Assembly: GCA_016722945.1 (NCBI GenBank) | Contig: JAEQMT010000038.1 | Location: forward strand, 620,001-684,000 | Direction: 5' to 3' | DNA from: Desulfofustis sp. PB-SRB1 | GTDB lineage: Bacteria > Desulfobacterota > Desulfobulbia > Desulfobulbales > Desulfocapsaceae | DNA length: 64,000 nucleotides | In this document: one piece after another, positions 2,230-51,160 of the stretch | Position numbering within the stretch: position 1 is the first letter of the stretch | Layout: the number at the start of each line of letters is the position of its first letter | The notes under the pieces: generated by a model | Seen by the model: only the letters and a program-made list of their open reading frames with translations | Database searches by the model: none | What the model was told of the DNA's origin: nothing | Position numbers and translations under genes: made by a program

Positions 2230-4068
2230 ATGTCTTTTTCATTCACCCGACAAATCTTAGGCGAGGCCTGGCGCGATGTGCGGACATGCTGGCCTTCGCT
2301 ACTTATCTATAATCTGTTTTTTCAACTCTTCTCGGTGATCATCCTGCTTCCCGTCACCACCTGGATGGGGCAGTGGGTTGTGCGGCGCAGCGGCGCCACG
2401 GCGATCAGCAACACGGCAATCATCTCTTTTATCTTTTCACCGGTGGGTATTGTGTGGGCGGCATTCACCGCCGTCACCACTCTGGTACTCATCTGGGCGG
2501 CGGTGGCCGGCATGCTGCACATCTGCTGGGCAGTTCAGCAAAACCAGCGGCTAAGCGCAACCGAGGCACTGATTTACACCGTTTTTTCGATTCCTTCGCT
2601 GGCACGGCTCGGCGGTCTGCACGTCCGCGCTCACCTGCTTCGGCTGGCGCCCGCAATAGCACTGATGGTGGTGATCTATGCCGTTTTTCTGGCCGGCTAT
2701 GACATCTACTACCTCTTTACCCAGCGACCGCCGGCACTGTGGGTGGCCGGCGCCCTCTTTGCCCTGGTCGGTATCGGCATAATCATCGTCAACGGCCGCC
2801 TGTTTCTGAAATGGTTTCTCTCCCTGCCCGCCATGCTCCACGACAGCCTCGCACCGCGTGATGCACTGAGCAGAAGCGTTACGCTTATCGGGGCGCGGGG
2901 GCGCTCGCTGGTGCTGCCGGTTATTATTGCAACGGCGCTGCTGATTGGTTCGCCGCTCATGGTGAGCATCCCGTTCAATGCGGCGGGTACGCTGATTTTC
3001 ACCAATCTCCCTGAAAAGATGGCGCTGGTGCTGCCGGCGCTGGTTATGTTTGCGGGACTCTATATCACTGCCGCCGCTGCCGTGGGTTTTTTCGTGGTCG
3101 CCTTTGAGTCGGCCGTTCTCGCCCGCCTCTACCGCCACCTCCGCCAACCCGGCCCTGATGAAACCACTACCAGGCATGCCGCCGTGGCCACCGAAACCAC
3201 CGCGCAACGGTTTTCACGGGGGGCTCCCGCCCTGCTGGCGGCAGGACTCTGCATCGCGGTCGGGTACGCCGCCTCTGTGGTAAACACGATCGATGTGGAC
3301 ACCGATATTTTGATAACCGCCCATCGCGGCAGCTCTTTACGTGCCCCGGAAAACTCGATTGCAGCCATCGAACTGGCCATCGAAGAGGGGGCCGATATCT
3401 GTGAACTGGACTTCATCCAGCTTGGCGACGGTACCATCGTCATGATGCATGACACCGATTTTCGCAGAATCGCCGGGCGTCCGGAACGCGCCTGGGAGGT
3501 GAGCTACGATCAGGTGAAGGGATGGGACGTGGGGAGCTGGTTTTCGCCCGAATATAGTTTCATGCGGTTGCAGACTCTAGATGATGTACTCGAAGTGGCT
3601 CGGGGGCGGATTCTGCTCAATATAGAGCTTAAGTTTCACGGCCATGAAAGAAGATTTATTGAACGAGTTGCCGAAACCTTGCGGAATGCCGATTTCCGTG
3701 AGCACTGCATCGTCACCTCACTTGATATCGATGCCCTCAAGCAATTCAGCAGGTTGGCGCCGGATTTTCGCATTGGCGCCATCCTGGCACAAAGCATCGG
3801 CTCTCCCATGCGCCTGGTAGCCGATGTACTGGCCATCAATACCCGGATGGCAACAACTGATTATGTTTCCGCCGCCCACCGGGTGGAAAAGAGGGTGCAT
3901 GTCTGGACCCTTAACGACCCTGAATCGATGTCGCGATTCATCGACCGCGGGGTCGACAGTATCATGACCGACGACCCACTGATACTGGCCGAGGTTCTGC
4001 GCGAGCGCCGGCACCTGAGCCCCGCCGCCACTCTACTGCTGCGTGCCCGCGCCTATTTTCTTGATTGA
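2230..4068 (+). CDS. membrane-anchored glycerophosphodiester phosphodiesterase
   Basis: A 612-residue protein in two parts. Residues 1-350 are hydrophobic with about six to eight membrane spans, like the membrane domain found in front of some GDPD enzymes. Residues 355-600 are the catalytic GDPD barrel: ITAHRGSSLRAPENS carries the His/Arg and Glu, followed by ELDFIQLGDGTIVMMHD with the metal ligands and second His, then IELKFH. It should hydrolyse glycerophosphodiesters to glycerol-3-phosphate and an alcohol; glpK and glpD lie elsewhere in the window. The stop TGA at 4066-4068 is formed by the last T of the gene plus the first GA of an inserted repeat, and the uninterrupted sequence would have ended TAA at the same codon, so the protein is not shortened. 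Confidence 0.9.
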   Translation: MSFSFTRQILGEAWRDVRTCWPSLLIYNLFFQLFSVIILLPVTTWMGQWVVRRSGATAISNTAIISFIFSPVGIVWAAFTAVTTLVLIWAAVAGMLHICWAVQQNQRLSATEALIYTVFSIPSLARLGGLHVRAHLLRLAPAIALMVVIYAVFLAGYDIYYLFTQRPPALWVAGALFALVGIGIIIVNGRLFLKWFLSLPAMLHDSLAPRDALSRSVTLIGARGRSLVLPVIIATALLIGSPLMVSIPFNAAGTLIFTNLPEKMALVLPALVMFAGLYITAAAAVGFFVVAFESAVLARLYRHLRQPGPDETTTRHAAVATETTAQRFSRGAPALLAAGLCIAVGYAASVVNTIDVDTDILITAHRGSSLRAPENSIAAIELAIEEGADICELDFIQLGDGTIVMMHDTDFRRIAGRPERAWEVSYDQVKGWDVGSWFSPEYSFMRLQTLDDVLEVARGRILLNIELKFHGHERRFIERVAETLRNADFREHCIVTSLDIDALKQFSRLAPDFRIGAILAQSIGSPMRLVADVLAINTRMATTDYVSAAHRVEKRVHVWTLNDPESMSRFIDRGVDSIMTDDPLILAEVLRERRHLSPAATLLLRARAYFLD

Positions 4069-4226
4069 TGGCGTCGTAAAAACCCATATACCAGTCATAA
4101 CGGAGTTGACCCGACATTTATAATTAATTGTAATCACTGGATTCCCGCTGTAGCCTGCCCTTGAGTGTTGTTATCGAGGGCGGGAATGACGGCAGCAAGC
4201 AATTTTGAGGTTTTTACGAGTCCATC
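4067..4226 (+). repeat. MITE-like element, long form (copy 2), in a stop codon
   Basis: Starts GATGGCGTCGTAAAAACCC and ends GGTTTTTACGAGTCCATC. Flanked by a perfect 6-bp direct repeat TTGATT at 4061-4066 and 4227-4232. The internal hairpin loop is about 27 bases longer than in the other copies (CCCGC, then TGTAGCCTGC and more, then GCGGG). It lies within the stop codon of the preceding gene and supplies its last two bases. Confidence 0.88.
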
Positions 4227-4392
4227 TTGATTAAAGGCGTCGGCAGCGGGCGGGGTCGGCGCCAGTAGCTCCGCTGTAGTTGTTCCGGCCCAGGGCGTCA
4301 CTGCCTAAAGCATCTTGACAAAGGTGCAGAGGAGAGGCAAACTTACAGTTTGGCAAAAAAATCAACATATTCCACCAATAGAGCAATACCTC

Positions 4393-25791: not shown

Positions 25792-25819
25792 GCCCCACCA
25801 CCGAATACGCCGGACTGCC

Positions 25820-26434
25820 ATGACCGCCGACACGCTTCGTCCCGAGGTTCGCGAGCGACTGGAGAAAGTGGTTCTTGACATTTTCTCCAACTCTGATTTT
25901 CACAAGGCAAGCATCAGGGATGTCGCCGAACAGGCCGGGGTAAGCTTTACCACCATATACAAACATTACGGCAGCAAGGAACAACTGGTCTTTGCCTTTG
26001 TCGATGTCTGGATGGGCAAACTTACCGACCGTATCGTCGACCATCTGCAGGGCATCGAGGACCTCAAGGAAAAACTGCGCAAGGTATTCTGGCTGCAGCT
26101 TGATTACTACGAGCGCCACGTCGGGCTGGGTAGAATCGTCTTCATGACCCTGCCGATGAACACCTGGATGGGCGACAGGACTTTCGCCCAACCCAGGATG
26201 ATGGGTCTGATGATCGAAGTGCTCAGGCAGGGGCAGAAGGAGGGCATTCTTAACTCCGAGGTCAGGGCAGGCACCCTGCTCGATTTTTTCATGGGCTTCG
26301 TCCAGCGCTCCTTTTTCATGTGGATTCTACGGGGCCAAAAGGAGAGCTTATCGGCCCAGGCCAATGCCATGTTCGAAATGGTCTGGCGGGGCATGCTCAA
26401 TCCCGACTACAAAAACGGCCAGAACAATCATTGA
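25820..26434 (+). CDS. TetR-family transcriptional regulator
   Basis: 204 residues. The N-terminal helix-turn-helix reads IRDVAEQAGVSFTTIYKHYGSKEQLVFAF (residues about 26-54), followed by an all-helical ligand domain. It lies inside the propionate block, 28 bases after the biotin protein and before the mutase, so acyl-CoA-responsive control of this block is a reasonable inference. Its stop codon coincides with an inserted MITE (26433-26497): the T of the stop is host, the GA comes from the element. Confidence 0.88.
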   Translation: MTADTLRPEVRERLEKVVLDIFSNSDFHKASIRDVAEQAGVSFTTIYKHYGSKEQLVFAFVDVWMGKLTDRIVDHLQGIEDLKEKLRKVFWLQLDYYERHVGLGRIVFMTLPMNTWMGDRTFAQPRMMGLMIEVLRQGQKEGILNSEVRAGTLLDFFMGFVQRSFFMWILRGQKESLSAQANAMFEMVWRGMLNPDYKNGQNNH

Positions 26435-26497
26435 TGGCCTCGCAAAAACTTCGCCCTACATCATCGTGGGATCGATTTGACTTTTTACGGGTTCATC
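26433..26497 (+). repeat. MITE-like element, short 65-bp form, in a stop codon
   Basis: Starts GATGGCCTCGCAAAAAC and ends CTTTTTACGGGTTCATC, with CGTGGGATCGATTTGAC inside. Perfect 6-bp direct repeats ATCATT at 26427-26432 and 26498-26503. Relatives of the same length are at 48726-48789, 50976-51041 and 58173-58237. The ends match those of the long form. Confidence 0.85.
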
Positions 26498-26537
26498 ATC
26501 ATTGACGAGTTTGACTCTTACCGACAAGGAGTACCCC

Positions 26538-28673
26538 ATGGCAACACATCCTGAATATGCACAGTGGCAGGAACTGGCAACCAAACTGATGAAGGGCAAG
26601 CCGCTCGACTCTCTTGACTGGCAGACCCCGGAAGGCATCACGGTCAAACCGCTCTACACCGCCGAGGACCTCGAGGGGCTGGAAAACACCAACACCCTGC
26701 CCGGTCTCGCGCCCTATGCGCGGGGACCGATGGCAACCATGTATGCCGGCAGACCGTGGACGATCCGGCAGTATGCCGGCTTTTCCACCGCCGCGGAATC
26801 CAATAAATTTTATCGAAACGCTCTGGCGGCGGGGCAGAAGGGGTTGTCGGTGGCCTTTGATCTGGCCACGCATCGGGGCTATGATTCAGATCACCCCAGG
26901 GTGACCGGCGATGTCGGCAAGGCAGGCGTTGCCATCGACTCGGTGGAGGACATGAAGATCCTCTTCGACGGCATCCCGTTGGATAAGATGTCGGTATCGA
27001 TGACCATGAACGGCGCCGTCATTCCCATCCTGGCAAGTTATATCGTCGCCGCCGAAGAGCAGGGAGTCGCCCATGAACAGCTGACCGGCACCATCCAGAA
27101 CGATATCTTGAAGGAGTATCTGACCAGAAACACCTTCATCTATCCGCCCACCCCGTCCATGCGGATCGTTGCCGATATCATCGGCTTCTGCTCGCACAAC
27201 ATGCCGCGCTACAACACCATCAGCATCAGTGGCTACCACATGATGGAGGCCGGTGCCAACTCGGTACTGCAGGTTGCCTTTACCATCGCCGACGGCCTCG
27301 AGTACGTGCGCACCGCGCTGAAAGCCGGTATGGACATCGACGATTTTGCCCCAAGGCTCTCCTTCTTCTTCGGCATCGGCATGAATTTCTTCATGGACAT
27401 CGCCATGCTGCGGGCCGCCCGGCTCCTCTGGTACCAACTCATGCGCCAGTTCAACCCGAAGAATCCGCGCTCCTCGATGCTCCGCACCCATTGTCAGACC
27501 TCCGGCTGGAGCCTTACCGAACAGGATCCCTACAACAACATCATTCGCACCACGCTCGAGGCGCTGACGTCGGTGCTGGGCGGCACCCAGTCGCTGCACA
27601 CAAACTCATTTGACGAGGCCATCGGGCTGCCCACCGATTTCTCCGCCCGCATCGCCCGCAACACCCAGATCATCATCCAGGAGGAATCCGAGGTCTGCCA
27701 TGTGATCGATCCCCTGGGCGGTTCCTACTATGTCGAATCGCTGACCAGCTCGATCGTTGCCGAGGCGATGAAGATCATCGACGAAGTGGAAGAGCTGGGC
27801 GGCATGGCCAAGGCCATCGAATCGGGGATGCCGAAAATGCGCATCGAGGAATCGGCGGCGCGCAAACAGGCACGTATCGACCAGGGCCTCGACGTCATCG
27901 TCGGGGTCAACAAATACAAAATCAAGGACGAGAAAATCGATTTCGAGATCAGGGAAGTCCCCGCCTCGGTGCGCGACGACCAGGTCGCCAGGCTCACCCA
28001 GATCCGGGCAACCAGAGATAACGCACAAGTGGAAAAGACTCTGGCGGAGCTGACCAGGGTCGCCAGAGAAGGGGGCAACCTGCTGGAAGCGGCGCTGCCG
28101 GCCATTCGGGCACGGGCTACGGTGGGCGAGGTCTCTGATGCCATGGAGCAGGTGTTTGGCCGCTACGTCGCCAATACCCGCTGTATCTCAGGGGCTTATG
28201 CATCGGAGTTTGGGACCGAATCAGAGAGCCTCGTCTTGCTGCGTAAGCGGACTGAGGAGTTTCTCAAAAAACATGGGCGACGTCCTCGTATGCTGGTCAC
28301 CAAGATGGGGCAGGACGGCCATGACCGCGGTATCAAGGTGATTGCCAGCGCCTATGCCGATTTAGGCTTCGATGTCGATATCGGGCCACTGTTCCAGACT
28401 CCGCGGGAAGCCGCCAAAATGGCCATCGAAAACGATGTCCACGTGGTCGGCGCCTCCAGCCTCACCGCCGGCCACAAGACCCTGGTGCCGAATCTGGTGG
28501 AAGAGCTGAAAAAGCAGGGAGGCACGGACATCAAGGTGGTTGCCGGCGGCGTCATTCCACCCAAAGATTACGATTATCTCTATAAGCGTGGAGTGCAGGC
28601 GGTATTTGGCCCGGGTACCTCGGTGATCGACTCGGCCAACCGCACCCTTGACTTGATCGATGAACCGGCCTGA
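26538..28673 (+). CDS. mcm: methylmalonyl-CoA mutase
   Basis: 711 residues starting at ATG 26538 behind AAGGAG; the 12 codons upstream are unlikely. The substrate barrel has the [19 protein letters not shown] motif (residues about 75-93) and [17 protein letters not shown]. The C-terminal B12 domain has DGHDRG near residue 595, whose His binds cobalt from below, and [12 protein letters not shown]. It is the fused single-chain form and interconverts methylmalonyl- and succinyl-CoA. No epimerase gene is in the window. MeaB follows. Confidence 0.96.
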
Positions 28674-40085: not shown

Positions 40086-40222
40086 AGTGATTTCGTAAAA
40101 ACCTCAAAATTGCTTGCTATCGTCATTCCCGCGAAAGCGGGAATCCAGTGATTTCAATTAATTATGAATGTCGGGTCAATTCCGGTATGACATGCAGGCA
40201 TATGGGTTTTTACGAAAGCATC
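40086..40222 (-). repeat. MITE-like element, long form (copy 4), between glpD and glpK
   Basis: In reverse orientation: GATGCTTTCGTAAAAACCC to GGTTTTTACGAAATCACT, with the CCCGCGAAAGCGGGAAT hairpin. No exact target duplication is left. It separates glpD from glpK, so a formerly tight operon may now rely on readthrough of the hairpin. Confidence 0.75.
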
Positions 40223-48480: not shown

Positions 48481-48725
48481 CAGAAATTCTCGTGACGGGT
48501 AACACCTGTTAAATTAGCAACAACCGGTAGAAATTGGTAGCTTTACATGGTAAACCGTTTAAAGCGTTCTGGTACGAAGCATGCTTATGGCACCGCGGGC
48601 GCCATCTTGAAGGTAACAAAGTCGATTTTGCGGCGACGTCGGTGGACATCTCTCTTACAAGATAGGATGGCTCGATAAAAACACAGCTCGTAGAAGTGGT
48701 GGTCGTTTTGACCTCGCAGCCCTCT

Positions 48726-48789
48726 GAGGTGTGTCGAGAAGTCAAAACGATCCCACGACGACTCAGAGCAAAATTTTCACAACGCTATC
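48726..48789 (-). repeat. MITE-like element, short form (diverged copy)
   Basis: On the minus strand it runs GATAGCGTTGTGAAAAT to GACACACCTC, with CGTGGGATCGTTTTGAC inside, the same length as the copy at 26433. It lies between the divergent SNF2 and SDR genes. A further end-like piece GATGGCTCGATAAAAAC is at 48666. Confidence 0.6.
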
Positions 48790-50975: not shown

Positions 50976-51160
50976 TACCGGCTCTTACAAAAACTTCGCT
51001 CTCCATGGTCGTGGGATCGTTTTGAATTCTCCTCGTACCACAGGTACCACTGCGAGATCAGACCAACCACCACTCCTGTGAGCAGTGTTTTTACTTAGCC
51101 ATCTCAGACCCTACATTAGACTTTTTGCGAGTGCATCACTTACGATGTTCTTGCAAAAAA
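50976..51160 (+). repeat. nested MITE debris
   Basis: 50976-51041 is a 65-base short-form copy (CTTACAAAAACTTCGCTC, CGTGGGATCGTTTTGAA). Isolated ends follow: GTTTTTACTTAGCCATC near 51086-51102, GACTTTTTGCGAGTGCATC near 51119-51137 and GATGTTCTTGCAAAAAATCG at 51144. Several insertions have decayed on top of each other. Apart from this and the next two entries, the 50821-51592 gap has no gene; a fragment IENRIFQDARALYEGRLQRY near 51318-51380 looks coding-derived. Confidence 0.6.

Follow-up and report, generated by a model that had tools for sequence, protein, structure and literature searches.

A 65-bp MITE within the stop codon of a tetR gene in Desulfofustis sp. PB-SRB1, and the insertion of related MITEs at gene ends

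A short element at the tetR stop codon

Within the window, that is, the whole stretch of 64,000 nucleotides that was analysed, the gene for a TetR-family regulator is followed on the same strand by that for methylmalonyl-CoA mutase, and a small element lies across the tetR stop codon. The features of this junction are:

25820-26434, + strand: TetR-family regulator gene, 204 aa (open reading frame; TetR_N above its gathering score)
26427-26432, + strand: target-site duplication, left copy ATCATT, whose final T begins the tetR stop codon
26432-26434, + strand: present tetR stop codon TGA, host T plus element GA
26433-26497, + strand: short-form MITE of family A, 65 bp (from the sequence and genome matches)
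26433-26448, + strand: left terminal inverted repeat GATGGCCTCGCAAAAA, which supplies the GA of the stop codon TGA
26434-26505, + strand: 23-codon open reading frame; its ATG overlaps the tetR stop (TGATG) and it ends at the displaced host TGA
26482-26497, - strand: right terminal inverted repeat, GATGAACCCGTAAAAA in minus-strand reading (from the sequence)
26498-26503, + strand: target-site duplication, right copy ATCATT, followed by the host GA of the displaced original stop
26538-28673, + strand: methylmalonyl-CoA mutase gene (NF006944, 1228 bits against a cut-off of 876)

The element, GATGGCCTCGCAAAAA...TTTTTACGGGTTCATC, is the short form of a family termed A here. Its terminal inverted repeats are 16 bp long and imperfect, the flanking ATCATT duplication is perfect (6/6), and directly 3' of the right copy the host sequence resumes as GACGAG. 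It is classed as a MITE, being short, bounded by inverted repeats and a target-site duplication, devoid of a transposase reading frame, and present in many dispersed copies whose ends are common to an autonomous element.

The tetR reading frame ends AAT CAT TGA, with T26432 coming from the duplication and GA from the element. Removal by script of the element and one copy of the duplication gave an empty site that reads AAT CAT TGA CGAG. Three relatives (G064, G066 and G068), with tetR genes that are 95, 94 and 93% identical, lack the element at this site; the 3' ends of these genes read AACCGCTGA, AACCGCTGA and AATCACTGA, respectively, and their stop, TGA, lies at the same codon as in the gene carrying the element. 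The host T and the terminal GA of the element rebuild TGA, and the TetR protein is left unchanged. The earlier note had placed the element between copies of ATCATT, which are confirmed at 26427-26432 and 26498-26503, and had read the host sequence as CAT TGA with or without it, on which the script-made empty site and the three element-free relatives agree.

The distance between tetR and the mutase gene is 103 nt (26435-26537), the MITE included, and it is 468-786 nt in 28 of 29 related loci, the 29th not being measurable. In G068 a gene for methylmalonyl-CoA epimerase (above the TIGR03081 cut-off) occupies this gap. The idea that the element caused the loss of such a gene in Desulfofustis was rejected: the genome carries an epimerase gene elsewhere (C39:54630-55028), and the element is still flanked by an intact duplication.

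Element families and their probable mobiliser

The genome in which the window lies (4.69 Mb, 71 contigs) was searched for further copies. The 77-bp stretch comprising the element and its duplications gave 52 matching places at E values up to 10, with some copies giving two, and the long form of 162/155 bp gave at least 40 matches of at least 104 bits (40 of 158 candidates scored). The end pattern GATGNNNTCGTAAAAA, with up to two mismatches, was matched 776 times, compared with 102 matches for a reversed control pattern. In the 162-bp long form the hexamer TGACTT occurs at positions 46 and 143, and loss of 97 bp between them leaves exactly 65 bp. A second short-form copy, also of 65 bp, was found at another site (C1:611854-611918; duplication AAGGGT/AAGGAT). 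Judged from these sequences, a 97-bp deletion between the TGACTT repeats of the 162-bp form most likely gave rise to the 65-bp form, which then moved as such, because the two copies at different sites have a common length and junction. Both short-form copies found are in stop codons (2/2), a number too small to judge.

A second MITE family, B, consists mostly of elements of 133 and 160 bp with ends common to those of family A, and a 121-bp element with two copies in the genome has ends of the same kind. Besides the copy at tetR, the window contains:

1950-2082, + strand: 133-bp MITE of family B, with the duplication ATTTAT and outside called genes
4067-4226, + strand: 160-bp MITE of family B, inserted in a stop codon and changing the host TAA to TGA; flanked by the duplication TTGATT (4061-4066, 4227-4232)
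40086-40222, + strand: degenerate MITE of 137 bp, with a called stop 45 nt upstream of it

The earlier note had counted two of eight window copies in stop codons. The two stand (4067, host stop TAA; 26433, host stop TGA), whereas the total shrinks under a stricter census, which accepts four window copies (1950, 4067, 26433 and 40086); the remainder are presumably more decayed ends. An inverted pair about 2.2 kb apart, 48724-48777 and 50990-51043, resembles decayed family-A copies, with further decayed ends nearby at 51103-51137. The window also holds direct repeats 8-10 kb apart, 41671-41970/51491-51790 and 44007-44306/51861-52160, which are 96 and 99% identical over 300-nt stretches.

Elements of 1931 bp with GATGNNNTCGTAAAAA-type ends enclose a 593-aa DDE transposase:

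C1:87979-89909: 1931-bp copy
C6:11628-13558: 1931-bp copy, perfect duplication AATTAT (6/6)
L063: third 1931-bp copy

The flanks of the C1 and L063 copies (two of the three) are without a matching duplication. The protein matches DUF772 (PF05598), DDE_Tnp_1_6 (PF13751) and DDE_Tnp_1 (PF01609), all above gathering scores, and its best NCBIfam match is the IS1182 family (NF033551, E 2.3e-39). It resembles that family in being a one-ORF DDE transposase with DUF772 and DDE domains, but its score of 135.6 bits is far under the cut-off of 270, and for this reason it is named only IS1182-like. Members of the IS1182 family range from 1330 to 1950 bp in length. The common ends and duplications suggest that the MITEs are probably mobilised in trans by this transposase. 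An assignment of two of the IS copies to family B was rejected as a k-mer artefact.

A scan of named genomes gave 21 loci with relatives of the transposase, some of which seem to be identical with records from the genome survey described below, so that the two sets are not independent. Fourteen of these loci were examined for ends. Ends are recognisable on both sides in 11 (L283, L284, L285, L286, L287, L290, L291, L292, L294, L295 and L296) and degenerate in L288, and the right end alone was found in L282 and L289. Perfect 6-bp duplications, all of the form ANNNNT, flank five of the 14 (L283 AATTTT, L284 AAGACT, L285 ACTCAT, L287, from Desulfobulbus alkaliphilus, ACATAT, and L294 AACCTT); the other loci have imperfect or no duplications. 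Relatives also occur in records assigned to distant groups, namely the SAR324 cluster (L290, L291), Bacteroidales (L295), Mariprofundaceae (L296) and Nitrospirae (L300), and the first four of these loci have ends of the same kind as the Desulfofustis elements. Misplacement of all five is possible because all are metagenome bins.

In the survey of 93 genomes of the family, the transposase was found in 10 at E 1e-60 and at least one exact end pattern in 64, which rules out that the transposase is present wherever the MITEs occur. Of the other nine transposase-bearing genomes, four contain at least 39 exact end patterns (G010 62, G014 100, G015 41 and G021 39) and five have at most seven. The 3.2-Mb genome G022, from another genus, has 397 exact end patterns and gave no transposase match at E 1e-60; its MITEs apparently lack their mobiliser or have one that is more distantly related.

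Target motif and insertions at stop codons

Insertions were then counted in a census of about 35% of the genome (1.65 Mb) plus the family-A loci. It covered C1:1-800000, C43:1-400000, the window, and parts of C6, C15, C16, C2 and C19 that were picked because end patterns were listed there. The 124 elements recorded became 123 after removal of one duplicate site (C16 = C15) and 121 after removal of two inside genes, and 112 insertions remained once nine not bounded by called genes on both sides, or lying in gaps >1500 nt, had been dropped; related insertions among them are not independent events in time. A home-made codon-usage script served to call genes (676 genes on 800 kb, 82% coding). The duplicate site (C15:18683-18842 and C16:6414-6573) is one MITE insertion with identical flanks on two contigs, either a duplicated region or an assembly duplicate.

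Among the 123 unique elements, 46 have perfect 6-bp and 14 perfect 7-bp duplications, and 30 and 8 more match at 5/6 and 6/7 positions, respectively; these shares lean upward because the census itself used the duplication (up to three mismatches with good ends) as a criterion. In the following tandem arrays, two or three MITEs follow one another head to tail, neighbours being separated by a single 6- or 7-bp duplication:

C1:38970-39367
C1:54771-55030
C1:301634-301931
C6:39073-39343
C6:46164-46462

Six such junctions among 102 elements compare with about 4.6 expected from the target motif (8.4 if all elements were present throughout), and special self-targeting was ruled out, since the number is about as the motif predicts.

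Of 76 sites whose 6-bp duplications agree at five or six bases, 55 were used to derive the motif, stop sites and sites beside other element ends being excluded. The symmetrised consensus is TTANNNNTAA, that is, the palindrome TT-ANNNNT-AA, with T at frequencies of.53/.56 at positions -2/-1, A at.88 at position 1, T at.88 at position 6, A at.56 and G at.24 at position 7, and A at.53 at position 8. A similar consensus was obtained from 21 sites in G022, where the duplication begins with A (.78) and ends with T (.78), followed by A or G (.35 each) and then A (.53). A stop codon is a good half-site because the right half of TTANNNNTAA reads T^AA or T^GA. Moreover, the elements begin with GA, so that whichever stop is hit after its T, the result is an in-frame TGA and the protein is unchanged.

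The position of each insertion was expressed as the distance d from the last duplication base to the T of the stop, d = 0 being exact T^RA. Nine of the 121 insertions lie exactly there, where uniform placement in permitted DNA would give 0.49 (P 2.3e-9), and the enrichment for which the earlier note had proposed a genome-wide check is thus present in the census. Weighting by the motif raises the expectation to 1.49 for the hexamer alone (P 2e-5), 2.65 for the core (P 0.0015) and 2.96 for the full motif (P 0.003). When gaps between genes were limited, the numbers seen and expected were 5 and 4.8 (100 nt, P 0.55), 6 and 4.2 (200 nt, P 0.24), 8 and 4.7 (300 nt, P 0.10), 9 and 4.6 (500 nt, P 0.039) and 9 and 3.6 (1500 nt, P 0.010); with high-scoring genes only, they were 6 and 3.5 (300 nt, P 0.13) and 7 and 3.2 (500 nt, P 0.043). 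Among the 37 insertions 0-40 nt after a stop, the exact-stop class comprises 9 where 7.4 are expected (P 0.31). By these figures a large part, and perhaps all, of the stop-codon enrichment comes from the target motif.

In G022, 38 insertions were called, of which 24 were usable in the null model, and 3 of 35 classed insertions lie at T^RA, one of them depending on a gene that was called at the lowest accepted score. Three of 24 compares with 0.12 for uniform placement (P 0.00025) and 0.6-0.8 for motif-weighted placement; in gaps up to 500 nt, 1 of 15 lies at a stop against 0.63 expected, and the excess is not repeated there. The host stops hit are TGA in six cases, TAA in two and TAG in one in the Desulfofustis genome, whereas the motif alone would favour TAA (expected TAA 1.77, TGA 0.88, TAG 0.31). 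In G022 all three stops are TAA, judging from the site sequences. The insertion at C15:233147, counted among the nine, is followed by a remnant of another family-A element that hides the original host stop; without this case, 8 of 121 gives P values of 5e-8 for uniform placement, 0.010 for the full motif and 0.09 for gaps up to 500 nt.

Where the hit stops could be checked, they are genuine gene ends. That of tetR is borne out by the three element-free relatives, and seven of the proteins with hit stops were compared with Pfam. For NamZ_C and DUF1318 the final profile position coincides with the final residue, and other profiles end at residues 222 of 224 (Trans_reg_C), 166 of 167 (ICMT), 450 of 471 (cytochrome c552) and 82 of 103 (DUF167); one of the seven gave no match.

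Accounts of insertion at gene ends

Of the 124 insertions, only 2 are found at a depth of at least 30 nt within called genes, which points to strong selection. Same-strand gaps of up to 30 nt contain four insertions where 4.0 are expected, so that operon-like junctions are not avoided. Same-strand gaps of 31-100 nt contain 13 where 7.7 are expected.

In the reading that we favour, with a probability of about 0.82, the element at tetR is a non-autonomous MITE moved in trans by the IS1182-like transposase, and sites chosen by motif, together with selection, make stops recurrent landing places. The transposase would pick its sites by the sequence TTANNNNTAA, and selection would then remove insertions inside genes. 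Insertions at T^RA would survive since they are cost-free, the terminal GA restoring TGA, and stop codons would in this way become recurrent landing places, also between close same-strand genes. Placement by chance, under which the ends of some A+T-rich hexamers coincide with stops by accident and two such cases were noticed, can hardly be right. Only two copies had been noted in the window, some counts are small and one G022 case depends on a minimum-score gene call, but the figures given above (9/121 and 3/24) refute uniform placement in both genomes at the present sample sizes.

Recognition of gene ends as such, in which the transposase or a host partner (a terminating ribosome, a transcript 3' end or an R-loop) directs insertion beyond base preference, is a distinctly improbable alternative. 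It draws on what the motif leaves over in gaps up to 1500/500 nt, namely 9 insertions at 0 nt against 3.6-4.6 and 15 at 3-8 nt after stops against 3.5-4.6, on the return of the 3-8 nt excess in G022 (5 against 0.8-1.0), and on convergent gaps of up to 100 nt, which contain 9 insertions against 1.5. However, the exact-stop class is near its prediction both within 0-40 nt and in gaps up to 100 nt, insertions in divergent gaps, where there are no 3' ends, match the prediction (34 in all such gaps against 35.2), and the region 9-40 nt upstream of starts is likewise in excess (27 against 17.0). This start-proximal excess, together with a deficit more than 100 nt from a stop (24 against 43.3), indicates that missed genes have probably raised the expected numbers for large gaps, and any near-gene excess may be artefactual in part. 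In gaps up to 100 nt the 3-8 nt class still comprises 9 insertions against 4.2. Under the favoured account, this residual excess would stem from selection favouring positions where neither the reading frame nor the sequence beyond it is disturbed, rather than from recognition of gene ends. To the question posed by the earlier note, whether the elements are tolerated or targeted at T^RA, the data answer that they are tolerated (four in tight same-strand gaps against 4.0) and that they are targeted by base sequence, TTANNNNTAA; sensing of gene ends as such is neither demonstrated nor refuted.

A function retained at tetR itself, either translational coupling of tetR to the mutase gene through TGATG and the 23-codon frame or a hairpin for RNA processing, is still less probable than recognition of gene ends. 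The TGATG overlap, with a frame that stays open as far as the displaced host TGA, and the position of both short-form copies in stop codons are in keeping with it. Against coupling, the frame relation needs (length + 6) mod 3 = 2, which holds for 155 bp but fails for 160, 133 and 162 bp; because the commonest other element lengths break it, the 23-codon frame, known from sequence, may be accidental. Against a hairpin, the RNA fold of the element is unremarkable (-16 kcal/mol, z -1.67 versus shuffles, weakly better). A promoter and terminator scan gave no site within the element, which rules it out as either, and an Rfam search of 25800-26700 gave no match at E 0.5 or better, ruling out a known RNA family. 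A structured RNA under selection was also rejected, the covariation among 26 family-A copies of 140-170 bp being insufficient: one pair varies on both sides (A-U 13, G-C 11, G-U 1, broken 1) and the remaining pair changes are of G-U type only.

A further proposal goes beyond the favoured account in holding that the match between target half-site and terminus is itself a selected trait, allowing spread that is safe for stop codons, with an added pull to the first bases after stops; the IS1182-like group and its MITEs would then settle at and between genes while leaving the proteins unchanged. This we regard as unlikely, although less so than recognition of gene ends.

That MITEs occur at gene 3' ends is already known. 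De Gregorio et al. are said to have reported in 2006 that YPAL, the Yersinia palindromic sequences (RU-2), lie closely downstream of stop codons, and these resemble the present elements in being small mobile repeats with target duplications. As described in part of the text of PMC2229807, YPAL are about 168 bp long, with duplications of 3 to 26 bp and targets at or beside dyad symmetry; they differ in that this part describes no stop-rebuilding terminal GA for them. ERIC (RU-1), RUP and Correia elements are likewise small intergenic repeats compared to MITEs, most of this kind having TA ends (PMC2229807, in part), and RU-1 can reach a gene 3' end. In the case outlined in part of PMC2759123 the protein was lengthened and the normal stop seemingly removed, the opposite of the stop-rebuilding at tetR. 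For IS1272, a member of the IS1182 family, new insertions replace inverted repeats without target duplication according to part of PMC5678879, whereas the present group has 6-7 bp duplications at TTANNNNTAA. A literature search, mostly of titles and the openings of abstracts, found no report of an element with a stop-codon half-site and a stop-restoring terminus. As far as the literature was searched, what is new here is an IS1182-like group with MITEs that has a measured target consensus and a terminus restoring the stop.

These observations offer a reason at the level of sequence for the presence of small elements at gene ends, namely a palindromic target that contains a stop together with a restoring terminus, and whether such elements are targeted to gene ends or merely tolerated there becomes testable with one element and one motif. 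They also carry a warning for annotation, in that the stop codon of some genes is part of a transposable element.
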